A stretch of DNA of 64,000 bases. Origin: Stigmatella ashevillena (GTDB taxonomy: Bacteria > Myxococcota > Myxococcia > Myxococcales > Myxococcaceae). Shown here one piece after another: positions 5,779 through 64,000 of this stretch. A program made the position numbers and the translations under genes. Numbering within the stretch: the stretch's first letter is position 1; every line of letters starts with the position of its first letter. The notes beneath the pieces were generated by a model. The model worked only from the letters and a program-made list of their open reading frames with translations, did not search any database and had not been told where the DNA came from. The stretch is from positions 7,186,425-7,250,424 of the forward strand of contig NZ_JAQNDM010000002.1 in the NCBI RefSeq assembly GCF_028368975.1, in the 5' to 3' direction.

Positions 5779-6183
5779 CTACTCCGCGCCGTTCTCGGCG
5801 ATGTTGAAAAACGACTTGATCACGCGCTCGCAGTGGACTTCCCAGATGACCACCTGGCCCTGCTGGATGAAGTAGCTGTCCCCGGGCCGGTAGGTGTGGG
5901 TTTGTCCACTTTCATCGGTGAGGGTGACCTCGCCCTCCAGGATGGTGGCGTGCTCAGTGAAGGGAAACGTCACTTCTACCCGTCCCTGGGTCGCCATGAA
6001 GAGCCCCGCAGTCATGGGCCCTGCCCGGAAATCGACGCGCGTGAAGATTTCCGGTCGGCCTCTCAAGGTTTTTCCGCCGAGGTTCTCGGGAGGGCCCAGT
6101 GAGACGAGCTGAGAGATGTCCTGGATGCTCCCAGGCGAGCACACGTTCATCCGGCGCGCACGTACCGCATTGCTCGAGGTCAT
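5779..6183 (-). CDS. Cupin-domain protein (EutQ/DUF861-like)
   Basis: A 134-aa single-domain cupin. Strands TFPFTEHATILEGEVTLTDESG and YRPGDSYFIQQGQVVIWEV carry the two cupin motifs. The first lacks the usual HxH pair, having only one His and an acidic E-G-E turn, as in the DUF861/Cupin_3 group found in ethanolamine-utilisation EutQ and ureidoglycine-related proteins. The C-terminal W-E-V-H segment matches that subgroup. GGGAGGAGTC lies directly upstream of ATG 6183. It is probably a small enzyme or ligand-binding protein; the substrate is not predictable. Confidence 0.75.
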   Translation of the reverse strand: MTSSNAVRARRMNVCSPGSIQDISQLVSLGPPENLGGKTLRGRPEIFTRVDFRAGPMTAGLFMATQGRVEVTFPFTEHATILEGEVTLTDESGQTHTYRPGDSYFIQQGQVVIWEVHCERVIKSFFNIAENGAE

Positions 6184-59690: not shown

Positions 59691-61094
59691 ATGACGGACG
59701 TACAGGGCCTCGACACTCTGGGCGTGGGCAGCCGGGTGGGTCTCTGGCGATTGGAGCGGCTTGCTGGACGTGGCAGCTTTGGGAGGGTGTTCCAGGCTCG
59801 CCGAGACGGGGAGCCCCAGTCCGAGCCCGTGGCGTTGAAGGTGGCGCTCGCGCCTGAGGACGCGCGCTATGCTCGCGAGGTGGAACTGCTCTCGCGGCTC
59901 CGTCATGCGGCCGTGCCCGCCTTGGTGGACCGAGGGCAGTGGCACCCGGAGGGAGGAGCCCAGTATCCCTTTCTGGTCATGCAGTGGGTGGAGGGACTGA
60001 GGCTGTACGACTGGGCCCGGGTGTATGACCCCACGTCCCGGCAGTTGATGAAGGTGTTGGCTCAGGTCGCCCGGGCGCTGGAGGCATTGGAGGCGGTGGG
60101 TGGGGTGCACCGGGATGTTAAAGGCGACAATATTCTGGTGGGGAGTGATGGGCGGGCGAGCTTGATGGATTTCGGTTCGGGGACCTGGATGGGGGCGCCC
60201 TTGTTGACCCAAGGCATGCCGCCCAGCACGGCGGAGTATCAGGCGCCCGAGGCCATCCGGTTCTCCTGGTACCTTCGTTGGGATTGTCACACGCATTACG
60301 AGGCGAGGGCATCGGATGACATCTATGCGCTGGGAGTAACGGCGTACCGGGTGGTGACTGGGAGGTATCCCCCTCCTGGAACGGATCCGATGGGTCGGCA
60401 TCAGGGGCAACAGGTGCCCGTGCCGAAGCGCTCACCTGTGCGGTCGCTGAATGCCTGTGTGGCTCCGGAACTGGAGGCACTCATCGAGCGGATGCTGTCA
60501 CCGGTGGCCGAGGCGAGGCCGCGGGCCCGGGAAGTGGCGGAGGCTGCGGAGGCCGCCGCCGCACAGGCGGGGACCGAGGCCGATGTCCCGATGCTCGCAG
60601 GCAATCGCTTCATGGCGAAGGGGGATACGGGACAAGCCCGTTTGCGGTTGACCGCCCCCCGTGTGATGGAATGGCTGGCTGCTGCCTCCGTGAGCGCGCT
60701 CATGATTCTGGGAGCGTGGTGGGGCGTGCACGAACGGCGGTTCGAGGCTGCTCCGCTGGCGATGGACGAAGAATGGGGAGAGGGAGGACCACAGGAGGCA
60801 CGAACCACAGGGTTGGCGGATGCGGGGCTGAGCGAACTGGCAGGCTCAGCAGGACAACCTGTCACATTGTCTGCCGTAGGGCTCGACATGCCCCGCAAGC
60901 CCTTCCGGGGGCAGATCCGGCCGGATGGAAATGGAAGTTGTCCGCGCAAGGCCCAGCTTGCCGTCAATGGCGGATGCTGGGTTGCTTTGCGCGATGTCCA
61001 GCCACCATGCGGAGGGGAAGGCTATGAGTGGAAGGGGGGCTGCTACTACCCTGTGTATGACATGCCACGGCAGCCCACCTCCGAGCTGCCATAG
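59691..61094 (+). CDS. Ser/Thr protein kinase with C-terminal membrane anchor and Cys-rich tail
   Basis: 467 aa from ATG 59691 with GAGGG just upstream. The kinase domain has the glycine loop LAGRGSFGRVFQA (~26), VAL-K lysine (~51), catalytic loop VHRDVKGDNIL (~140), DFGSG (~160) and APE (YQAPEAI). All essential residues are present, so it should be active. A TM at about 327-348 (EWLAAASVSALMILGAWWGV) separates it from an extracytoplasmic tail with four Cys (GNGSCPRKAQ; NGGCWVAL; QPPCGG; KGGCYYPVYDMP), a module common in myxobacterial kinases. Substrate unknown. Confidence 0.92.
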   Translation: MTDVQGLDTLGVGSRVGLWRLERLAGRGSFGRVFQARRDGEPQSEPVALKVALAPEDARYAREVELLSRLRHAAVPALVDRGQWHPEGGAQYPFLVMQWVEGLRLYDWARVYDPTSRQLMKVLAQVARALEALEAVGGVHRDVKGDNILVGSDGRASLMDFGSGTWMGAPLLTQGMPPSTAEYQAPEAIRFSWYLRWDCHTHYEARASDDIYALGVTAYRVVTGRYPPPGTDPMGRHQGQQVPVPKRSPVRSLNACVAPELEALIERMLSPVAEARPRAREVAEAAEAAAAQAGTEADVPMLAGNRFMAKGDTGQARLRLTAPRVMEWLAAASVSALMILGAWWGVHERRFEAAPLAMDEEWGEGGPQEARTTGLADAGLSELAGSAGQPVTLSAVGLDMPRKPFRGQIRPDGNGSCPRKAQLAVNGGCWVALRDVQPPCGGEGYEWKGGCYYPVYDMPRQPTSELP

Positions 61095-61116
61095 TCAGTC
61101 CGTCTCCAGGCTCAGC

Positions 61117-61521
61117 TTACCGCCCGACGGGCTGTTTCGCCTCGGGAACCTTTACCAACCACTTTTCACCAGACATTTTGCTTGGTGCCAAGTCCATCAG
61201 TATCTTCGAAAGCTTACTCTCGATCTCCGCAATCGAATCGGCCAGTTTATCAGGGACAAGGTCGGCCACATCCTCGAGTTCACTGGCCAAGTGAAGAGCA
61301 TGGCGGAGTTCAGCATGCGCCTCAAGTTTCTCAATGCGCGCCAGCAGGGCCGGTCCAAAGAGTCGTTGACACGCATACGCAGAGGTCACCGTGCCCGTCG
61401 CCAATGCGCGACACATGCCCAGAGCCGCAATGGAAACCAGGCGCTGCACTTCCACAGTTCCTTCCGCCCGAAGCCATAGTTCCTCTTGCGAAGTCATGCG
61501 AGTTGGCAGGGACTCATTCAT
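61117..61521 (-). CDS. Hypothetical helical protein, 134 aa
   Basis: ATG 61521 is chosen because GTGGAG precedes it at the right distance; the GTG within that site is an alternative. The protein is helical and soluble: EELWLRAEGTVEVQRL, a small Ala/Cys helix (ALGMCRALATGTVTSAYACQRLF), acidic helices (ASELEDVADLVPDKLADS; EIESKLSKILMDL) and a short basic end. Base composition is lower in GC than the kinase to its left, like the adjoining insertion sequence. No family is recognised. Confidence 0.6.
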   Translation of the reverse strand: MNESLPTRMTSQEELWLRAEGTVEVQRLVSIAALGMCRALATGTVTSAYACQRLFGPALLARIEKLEAHAELRHALHLASELEDVADLVPDKLADSIAEIESKLSKILMDLAPSKMSGEKWLVKVPEAKQPVGR

Positions 61522-61617
61522 TGATTGCTCCACCCAGGCTTCATCTTAAGAGTTCCAAACAAAAGTCAGAACTGGAGCGCTCGCCCAGATGGGAATTGCT
61601 CCTCTGAAGGGACTTTA

Positions 61618-61645
61618 GGAGCCTCGCAAAAATAAATTGAGCAAC
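61618..61645 (+). repeat. Left terminal inverted repeat of the IS
   Basis: The outer end is GGAGCCTC, with the inner part carrying AAAAAT and TTGAGCAA. It pairs with 62871-62898 on the other strand. The transposase ATG lies 18 bp further in. Confidence 0.8.
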
Positions 61646-61662
61646 TCAGGTATTATAGAAGC

Positions 61663-62883
61663 ATGAAGAACGTTGACGAACTGCGAACAAAGTACGAGGC
61701 GATAGCGCCGCTCCTGAACGAACGTTCTCGTCGTCGGTGGGCGGCACTAGAGGCACGTGCCTATGGATATGGTGGCATCAGTGCTGTGGCACGCGCGACA
61801 GGACTGACACGCAACACGGTGATGGCAGGACTGCGTGAACTGCAAGGCACTGAGGATGAGCCAATCTCACTGGAGCGCGTACGGCACCAAGGCGCCGGAC
61901 GCAGGCGACTGGCGGTGACGGATAAGCAACTCAAACCACTTCTGGAGAAGTTGGTAAACCCAGTTACACGAGGCGATCCACAACACCCCCTGCGTTGGAC
62001 GAGCAAGAGCACGCCCCATCTTGCTGCTGAGTTGACGAAGCAGGGGCATTCTGTCAGTGCTGGCACTGTGGCGACAATGCTGAAGGCGATGGGCTTCAGC
62101 CTGCAATCTCCTCGCAAGGTACGTGAGGGCGGTTCGCACAAGGATCGAGACAAACAGTTCAGACACATCAACCGACAGACGCAGCTATTCCAAAAGAAGG
62201 TGCAACCCGTCATATCGGTAGATACCAAGAAAAAGGAGCTTGTAGGGCTCTTCAAAAACGGAGGGCGCGAGTGGCAAGTCCATGGAAAGCCCGAGGAAGT
62301 GAACGTCTATGATTTTCCTCCTCTTGCCGAAGGCAAGGCTATCCCGTACGGAGTTTATGATGTAACACTGAACGCAGGTTGGGTGAGCGTTGGTGTCGAT
62401 CACGACACGCCGCAGTTTGCTGCGAATGCGATTCGTGAGTGGTGGAAACACATGGGAAGCAAAGAGTACCCGGCAGCGACGGAGCTACTCATCGTGTCTG
62501 ACTCTGGGGGAAGCAACAGCGCTCGCTCGCGAGTATGGAAGATCGAGTTGCAGCGACTTGCCGATGACATCCGCATGCGCATCCATGTCAGCCACATGCC
62601 TCCGGGTACAAGTAAATGGAACAAGATCGAGCATCGACTCTTTTGCCACATCACGCAAAATTGGCGAGGTCGGCCGCTCATGAGCTATGAGACAGTAGTG
62701 AGCCTCATCAGTCACACAACAACCCGCACAGGCTTGAAGGTCAAGGCAACACTTGATCGACACCTCTATCAGACGGGGATCAAGGCGGCTGATACGGAGA
62801 TGAAGGAATTACAGATCAAGCGCTCAAGATTCCATGGAGAGTGGAACTACACATTCACTCCACGCTCCGACTTGCTCAAGTAA
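61663..62883 (+). CDS. ISAzo13-type DDE transposase
   Basis: 406 aa, full length. The N-terminal HTH region (YGYGGISAVARATGLTRNTV) leads to a linker with RRRLAVTDKQL. The catalytic domain has SVDTKKKELVG (first Asp, ~187), LLIVSDSGGSNS (second Asp, ~280) and SKWNKIEHRLFCHIT (Glu, ~322). The C-terminal part (DRHLYQTGIKAAD; FHGEWNYTFTPR) is characteristic of ISAzo13 transposases. The enzyme cuts and joins the element's ends. GC is about 50%, consistent with a foreign origin. Confidence 0.93.
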   Translation: MKNVDELRTKYEAIAPLLNERSRRRWAALEARAYGYGGISAVARATGLTRNTVMAGLRELQGTEDEPISLERVRHQGAGRRRLAVTDKQLKPLLEKLVNPVTRGDPQHPLRWTSKSTPHLAAELTKQGHSVSAGTVATMLKAMGFSLQSPRKVREGGSHKDRDKQFRHINRQTQLFQKKVQPVISVDTKKKELVGLFKNGGREWQVHGKPEEVNVYDFPPLAEGKAIPYGVYDVTLNAGWVSVGVDHDTPQFAANAIREWWKHMGSKEYPAATELLIVSDSGGSNSARSRVWKIELQRLADDIRMRIHVSHMPPGTSKWNKIEHRLFCHITQNWRGRPLMSYETVVSLISHTTTRTGLKVKATLDRHLYQTGIKAADTEMKELQIKRSRFHGEWNYTFTPRSDLLK

Positions 62884-62898
62884 TTTTTGAGAGGCGCC
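62871..62898 (-). repeat. Right terminal inverted repeat of the IS
   Basis: Read inward on the minus strand it begins GGCGCCTC and contains AAAAAT and TTGAGCAA, mirroring the left end. It overlaps the last codons and stop of the transposase gene, whose TAA lies at 62881-62883. Confidence 0.8.
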
Positions 62899-62954
62899 TT
62901 AGTTAGGAGCCCGTAGTTGGCTGCGCATGGTGTGAAGGCTAGCGCAGAGTGCTG

Positions 62955-63071
62955 GTGTACTTGTCGGCACTTGACGGGGTGCGCGCCATTGCGGAGTACT
63001 TGGCGCTGCCCTCGCGGTCTGTGAAGGTGGCCCCGGAGCAGGGCTACCCCAGCAGGAGTGGTGCTGATCTA
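62955..63071 (+). pseudogene. Possible C-terminal remnant of an IS91-like transposase
   Basis: A plus-strand frame just right of the IS reads YLSALDGVRAIAEYLALP, then SRSVKVAPEQGYPSRSGAD. The Y-L-x-L-P...AP-x-x-G-x-P pattern resembles the last residues of IS91-type transposases (alanine-rich helix, then A-P-A-R-G-P-P). It has no proper start and is cut off to the left by the ISAzo13 element. The similarity is by eye only and could be chance. Confidence 0.25.
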
Positions 63072-64000
63072 TTCGTCGCCGCGCACCGGCCAATCCAGCG
63101 GGATCAGGGCGCGTCCTGAAGCACGCGTCCACCGCTCCCGCGTGGCCTCCACGTACCGAGGATCGTCTGCAAAGTAGGCATGCTCTATGAGTAGCACCTG
63201 AAGATCCGTACGGCACTCGGTTTCGGAAAACAGGAAGTCGATGTGCTTGCGCATTGCCTGAACGTCCTGGTCCTCTTCGCGACCTTCGATTTCCGCCTCG
63301 TCTTCATCCTCTCCGCTGGTCGGGAAGTAGGGACGACTGATCTGGTCCAGAACTAGAAGCCCCGGCACCGGCGACTTCACCATCTCGAAGTAGCGCTGGA
63401 ATGCGAACGAAAGGGCGATGTGGATGGCCAAGTAGTTCTGATCCGAGCCAACGTCGGGCATCCGCAGGACTGCGCCACTCTCTGCCTCGATGACGGTGAC
63501 CTCCGGCTGTCGTGCCGAAAAGTCGAGTTCTGACCCGACGCAAGGAGCCACTGTCGGCAGCATGGAGAATGCCTCGGACGCAAACTGTGAGATCTTTGTC
63601 TCGGCCCGGCGAAGCTTGACCTCCTTCGCCTCCCGGTCCACCCGCCCCTCCAGGTCGGCGATCTCGGCTCGAAGGACGCTGAGATCGCGCGCCGCTTGGT
63701 GTGGCTCATCGACAGATGTCTCAAAGAAGAATGAGATCCGGCCTAGAAGATGGGCTCGAAGCTGAGCTAGGTTAGTTAGACGCTTAGTCTCCTCGCTCTG
63801 ACGCAACGACGTCTGAATCTGGTCGTCGACGCGGCGCAACTCGACATTGAGCGTTCCGATTTCTTGGTCGAGTGCCCGGTCGTGCTCAAGCAGCTTGGGC
63901 TTCACACGCTCGACGGCAGCGCTCTCCGCGCGCACCTTCGACAAAGTCGCCTGCAACGCCTTCGCCATCTCCTTTCCCCGCTCAGACGGCGCTTCGCAGA
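63069..64000 (-). CDS. DUF3732 SMC-like ABC ATPase, C-terminal half (partial, right edge)
   Basis: The frame remains open to the window end, and the ATG at 63968 is internal: the upstream in-frame codons (CEAPSERGKE) continue without a stop, and the domain here lacks a Walker A motif. From the N-side there is a coiled coil (LLEHDRALDQEIGTLNVELR; LRAEIADLEGRVDREAKEVKL). The ABC signature region follows (PDVGSDQNYLAIHIALSFAF). Next come Walker B GLLVLDQISRPYFP and a terminal QVLLIEHAYFADDP...LIPLDW. This is the conserved end of DUF3732 ATPases, which are the ABC subunit of three-component (ABC-3C-type) conflict systems. Partner genes would lie beyond the right edge. Confidence 0.85.
   Translation of the reverse strand, partial: CEAPSERGKEMAKALQATLSKVRAESAAVERVKPKLLEHDRALDQEIGTLNVELRRVDDQIQTSLRQSEETKRLTNLAQLRAHLLGRISFFFETSVDEPHQAARDLSVLRAEIADLEGRVDREAKEVKLRRAETKISQFASEAFSMLPTVAPCVGSELDFSARQPEVTVIEAESGAVLRMPDVGSDQNYLAIHIALSFAFQRYFEMVKSPVPGLLVLDQISRPYFPTSGEDEDEAEIEGREEDQDVQAMRKHIDFLFSETECRTDLQVLLIEHAYFADDPRYVEATRERWTRASGRALIPLDWPVRGDE

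Follow-up and report, generated by a model that had tools for sequence, protein, structure and literature searches.

Genes and insertion elements at the locus

The window, i.e. the whole stretch of 64,000 nucleotides of Stigmatella ashevillena DNA that was analysed (G000:C2:7186425-7250424), ends within a minus-strand open reading frame (63069-63998) that is open at the right edge, and it was read together with the continuation of the contig to its right (L002; window coordinates equal L002 coordinates plus 60575). In the edge fragment, Pfam DUF3732 was matched over the C-terminal 186 residues (113-298; E=1.1e-43), and in the continuation the gene, lmuB, is complete (L002 2494-4455, 653 aa, zero internal stops). 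The following features were identified, with window-equivalent coordinates given beyond position 64,000:

61615..62902, plus strand: ISAzo13-type element (DDE_Tnp_ISAZ013, Pfam 6.4e-136) with its transposase at 61663-62883, downstream of lmuB and outside the operon
63069..64000, minus strand: in-window 3′ part of lmuB, an intact gene for a DUF3732 SMC/Rad50-like ATPase that reaches position 65030 (Pfam, PADLOC, PDB, motifs)
65027-65512 (L002 4452-4937), minus strand: lmuC, MC3 middle component, 161 aa (Pfam MC3, PADLOC)
65509-66726 (L002 4934-6151), minus strand: lmuA, Cap4-like nuclease with a CTD7 tail, 405 aa (CTD7, PADLOC, nuclease residues, fold)
66751-67648 (L002 6176-7073), plus strand: IS5 insertion (NCBIfam transpos_IS5_3, 2.2e-73)

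The three genes are arranged on the minus strand in the order lmuA-lmuC-lmuB, and neighbouring genes overlap by 4 bp (ATGA). An alternative GTG start of lmuA at L002 6949 (671 aa) was rejected, because the resulting reading frame crosses the IS5 element and the alignment with many relatives begins at the ATG at 6151. The initial annotation had described the edge reading frame as a DUF3732 SMC-like ATPase, which is borne out by the Pfam DUF3732 match, the hook, the signature region and the Walker B motif. It had placed the N-terminal half and the partner genes to the right of the edge; the Walker A half was found there on the same contig, the ATPase being full-length (653 aa) and not truncated just past the edge, and reading beyond 64,000 revealed both companions, an MC3 gene and a CTD7/Cap4 gene, adjoining upstream on the same strand with 4-bp overlaps.

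Assignment to type II Lamassu and predicted mode of action

LmuB displays the architecture of type II Lamassu ATPases: it is a Rad50/SMC-like ATPase of about 650 aa with a Walker A motif (GASGTGKST), a short coiled coil, a CPxC zinc hook as present in many members (CPVC, 342-345), a DUF3732-type C-terminal half with the signature region VGSDQNY, and an E-to-Q Walker B motif (LLVLDQ; LDQ at 561-563). The full-length protein was matched by Pfam DUF3732 (6.5e-43), by the PADLOC LmuB model (3.9e-106, 355 bits) and by the solved DUF3732 chains of 9ny5, 9nyg, 9uxh, 9uxk, 9uxl, 9hqu and 9hqx (E ~1e-40 to 1e-42). The composition of the Lamassu family, the E-to-Q Walker B and the CPxC hook of LmuB have been described previously (PMC10586767), and the natural E-to-Q exchange was therefore rejected as a novelty of the present protein. 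LmuC is a middle component whose gene lies between lmuA and lmuB and overlaps both; it was recognized by Pfam MC3 (5.8e-29) and PADLOC LmuC (4.8e-8), and by sequence it matched a solved LmuC marginally (E 0.048). LmuA combines an N-terminal enzymatic domain, the Cap4 nuclease, with an ABC-3C C-terminal domain, as supported by Pfam CTD7 (2e-24), PADLOC LmuA (4.7e-50) and sequence matches to 9hqu/9hqx/9hr5 (4e-12) and 9nxx/9ny5 (1e-5). The Cap4 HMM match is weak and below the model cut-off (0.0039), but both the fold and the conserved residues E43, D46, D47, Q60 and K62 agree with a Cap4 nuclease. Among NCBIfam models, none scored above its cut-off for lmuA, lmuC or lmuB.

For the fold comparison, LmuA was modelled with AlphaFold2 from a 27-sequence alignment (pLDDT 88.7, pTM 0.67). 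The top sixteen Foldseek matches of the model were all Lamassu LmuA chains (best E 2.4e-16). Superposition on 9hr5_C gave a Z score of 27.0 with 373 aligned residues at an rmsd of 14.6, a high value which probably reflects different domain placement, and the C-terminal domain alone aligned with 9hqu_C over 133 residues at an rmsd of 2.9 (Z 14.8). The next matches, to HerA-DUF, Avs3, Cap4 SAVED receptor and Hachiman nuclease domains, had Z scores of about 15 or less and were restricted to the N-terminal 250 residues. Even the closest solved homologues are only remotely related, LmuA sharing 13-20% identity with them in the structural alignments.

Relatives from 41 public loci were sampled for the analysis of conservation. 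The order lmuA-lmuC-lmuB was the same in every one of these loci with intact upstream DNA; residues E43, D46, D47, Q60, L61, K62, H63 and S64 of LmuA were invariant (33/33), the CPxC hook was present in 40/40 LmuB proteins, and D562-Q563 was retained in 39 of 40.

On this evidence the locus is almost certainly a type II Lamassu defence operon of the ABC-3C, DdmABC-like kind, complete with lmuA, lmuC and lmuB, which, judging from its homologues, would act by the mechanism known for the family. The three-component ABC conflict system proposed initially was thus right in substance, the current name being type II Lamassu or DdmABC. A different SMC/Rad50-type system, either Wadjet or a housekeeping SbcC/Rad50-like repair complex, might be considered in view of the weak generic SMC/Rad50/RecN matches in the N-terminal half of LmuB. 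However, such an assignment is highly improbable given the DUF3732 C-terminal domain and the MC3 and CTD7/Cap4 partners, which stand where Wadjet (JetABCD) would have JetA, JetB and JetD; neither a Mre11/SbcD-like nor a JetABD partner was found in the operon. Jet proteins, including the JetC models, reached only ~15-18 bits as compared with 355 bits for the LmuB model, and DUF3732 is patchy in the family, where 6 of 96 genomes carry any such protein, which also speaks against this alternative.

The mechanism and the family of Lamassu are already established elsewhere by structures and genetics. Release of LmuA, its assembly into a homotetramer and abortive infection against P1 and lambda have been reported (PMC12409362), as has the sensing of DNA ends and stem-loops (PMC12904381); in homologues the liberated LmuA tetramer cuts DNA nonspecifically, leading to abortive infection and plasmid toxicity (PMC12409362, PMC12904381). 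All components required by this mechanism are present in the operon. By analogy, LmuB would be a short Rad50-like ATPase that dimerizes via its heads and the CPxC zinc hook and, together with LmuC, prevents the LmuA nuclease from acting. Contact of LmuB with DNA ends, or with hairpin or stalled-fork structures arising from a replicating phage or plasmid, would release LmuA, which would then form a homotetramer, whose Cap4 (PD-(D/E)XK-type) nuclease would cut DNA including the chromosome, so that cell death or arrest would end the infection. The Cap4 activity of the effector is predicted from homologues, and sensing, LmuA release, tetramerization and phage protection would likewise be expected here from the behaviour of related systems.

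Of the characterized systems, type II Lamassu of Salmonella enterica (PDB 9hqu, 9hqx, 9hr5) likewise contains a DUF3732 LmuB with a CPxC hook, a Cap4 LmuA with a C-terminal domain, and LmuC; it is the best sequence and fold match for the present LmuA, but sequence identity is low and the host belongs to a different phylum. The operon composition is shared with Vibrio cholerae DdmABC/type II Lamassu LmuACB (PDB 9uxl, 9uxh), whose LmuB type matches the present LmuB end to end (150 bits) and has the DQ Walker B, whereas the CPxC hook has no CPxC counterpart in the aligned V. cholerae-type sequence. The V. cholerae system is located on the VSP-II island (PMC12409362), in contrast to the present operon, whose site is not recognized as an island.

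Origin of the operon and genomic setting

Many proteins of Alphaproteobacteria share 74-77% identity with LmuB, and in the tree LmuB falls within a Pseudomonadota clade (support 100/98). The nearest relatives are the Lamassu operons of the Alphaproteobacteria Pleomorphomonas (L005), Nitrobacter (L036) and Salinarimonas (L034), with identities of 76-77% for LmuB, 60-66% for LmuA and 65-66% for LmuC; gene order and overlaps are as in the present operon, whereas the host lineage is different. The present gene is the only DUF3732 gene of its genome, and DUF3732 was absent from all 14 control genomes. In five related genomes the DUF3732 proteins lie outside the Pseudomonadota clade, at 25-31% identity to LmuB; the Pfam triad CTD7-MC3-DUF3732 also occurs in the related genomes G037, G041 and G028 (LmuB 28-31% identical and outside this clade), at different loci. 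The GC content of the operon is 59-62% as compared with 66.7% for the window.

At the same site of the sister genome G037, Lamassu is absent and ~1.4 kb with a DUF2379 protein lie between the same neighbours, namely the kinase and DUF3969 genes on the left (87%) and the efflux RND gene on the right (94%); in G038 the aminotransferase gene is ~1 kb from the RND gene. The Pseudomonadota-nested position in the tree and the empty site in the sister species argue that the operon was very probably acquired horizontally from a Pseudomonadota source at a variable site. In this way the Pseudomonadota-type Cap4 Lamassu subfamily would be extended into another lineage by horizontal transfer. Relatives on plasmids were found in 43 records, 25 of them predicted to be conjugative, with a best identity of 62%.

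Copies of the 3′ end of a Ser/Thr kinase gene flank the operon as a direct repeat (window 60879-61141 and L002 7787-8053; 75% over ~265 bp). This repeat was rejected as a trace of integration, because in G037 the left copy is present at the corresponding site although the operon is missing, and because the divergence between the copies is too great for them to have arisen by duplication in recent times.

Two minor observations concern the relatives: distant LmuB relatives (~28%) on many Agrobacterium plasmids are annotated just as DUF3732 domain-containing protein, and Porphyrobacter sp. SLTP carries two identical related Lamassu operons (L016, L040) ~76 kb apart on one contig, which suggests a recent duplication or a mobile carrier.

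The genes nearby encode a TonB-type receptor and an aminotransferase (from translations), the kinase, an RND efflux protein with a HlyD partner, and a peptidase M56. The IS element and a possible transposase remnant had initially been regarded as fitting a defence island. This reading was rejected as supporting evidence: PADLOC on ten neighbours returned generic hits only, i.e. the Ser/Thr kinase (generic similarity to mad6/PD-T4-6) and weak AAA hits on a T2SSE ATPase, and the IS elements are multi-copy genomic insertions. The setting is one of metabolic and efflux genes with two IS insertions and not a defence island. A small DUF3969 protein (window 61117-61533; 1e-11) is kept with its neighbours in G037 (L081 2942-3346).

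IS insertions and expression of the operon

Both IS insertions are recent, and neither breaks a gene of the operon. The ISAzo13-type element has five further copies in the genome at 100% identity, defined ends and a 3-bp target duplication, and three other near-full copies of the IS5 element occur at 93-97%. IS5 ends 24 bp upstream of the start codon of lmuA (ATG), and its insertion is accompanied by a clean duplication of TAA; the alphaproteobacterial operons seem to lack such an insertion upstream of lmuA, which would make it peculiar to the copy described here. In a weak scan of L002 6100-7500 for one promoter type, a sigma-70-like promoter was not found on either strand. Because IS5 probably separates lmuA from its native promoter and the scan gave no sigma-70-like match, expression of the operon may have been lost or rewired.

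One possibility is that the operon is Lamassu by descent and silent here, IS5 directly upstream of lmuA having removed the promoter. The short distance to the start codon, the clean target duplication and the result of the promoter scan favour such silencing. However, all three reading frames are intact and every catalytic residue is kept, so that no sign of decay is visible, IS elements often have outward promoters, and the scan covered a single promoter type; silencing is thus regarded as somewhat unlikely. It is put forward with similar caution that a transferred Pseudomonadota-type Lamassu had its expression rewired, that is silenced or brought under IS control, by the IS5 element. If true, rewiring would illustrate how an IS can tune the autoimmunity cost that an abortive-infection system imposes soon after its acquisition. 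The intact copy with its 5′ IS lends itself to studying how such a costly operon is expressed once it has been transferred.

Upstream of IS5 a degraded fragment was observed (L002 7104-7770, window-equivalent 67679-68345) that is 82-84% identical to part of the gene of a 504-aa predicted lipoprotein (G000:C2:7364765-7366279; L087 266-1780). Pfam gave zero matches, and a resemblance to the variable lipoprotein toxins of myxobacteria may exist.
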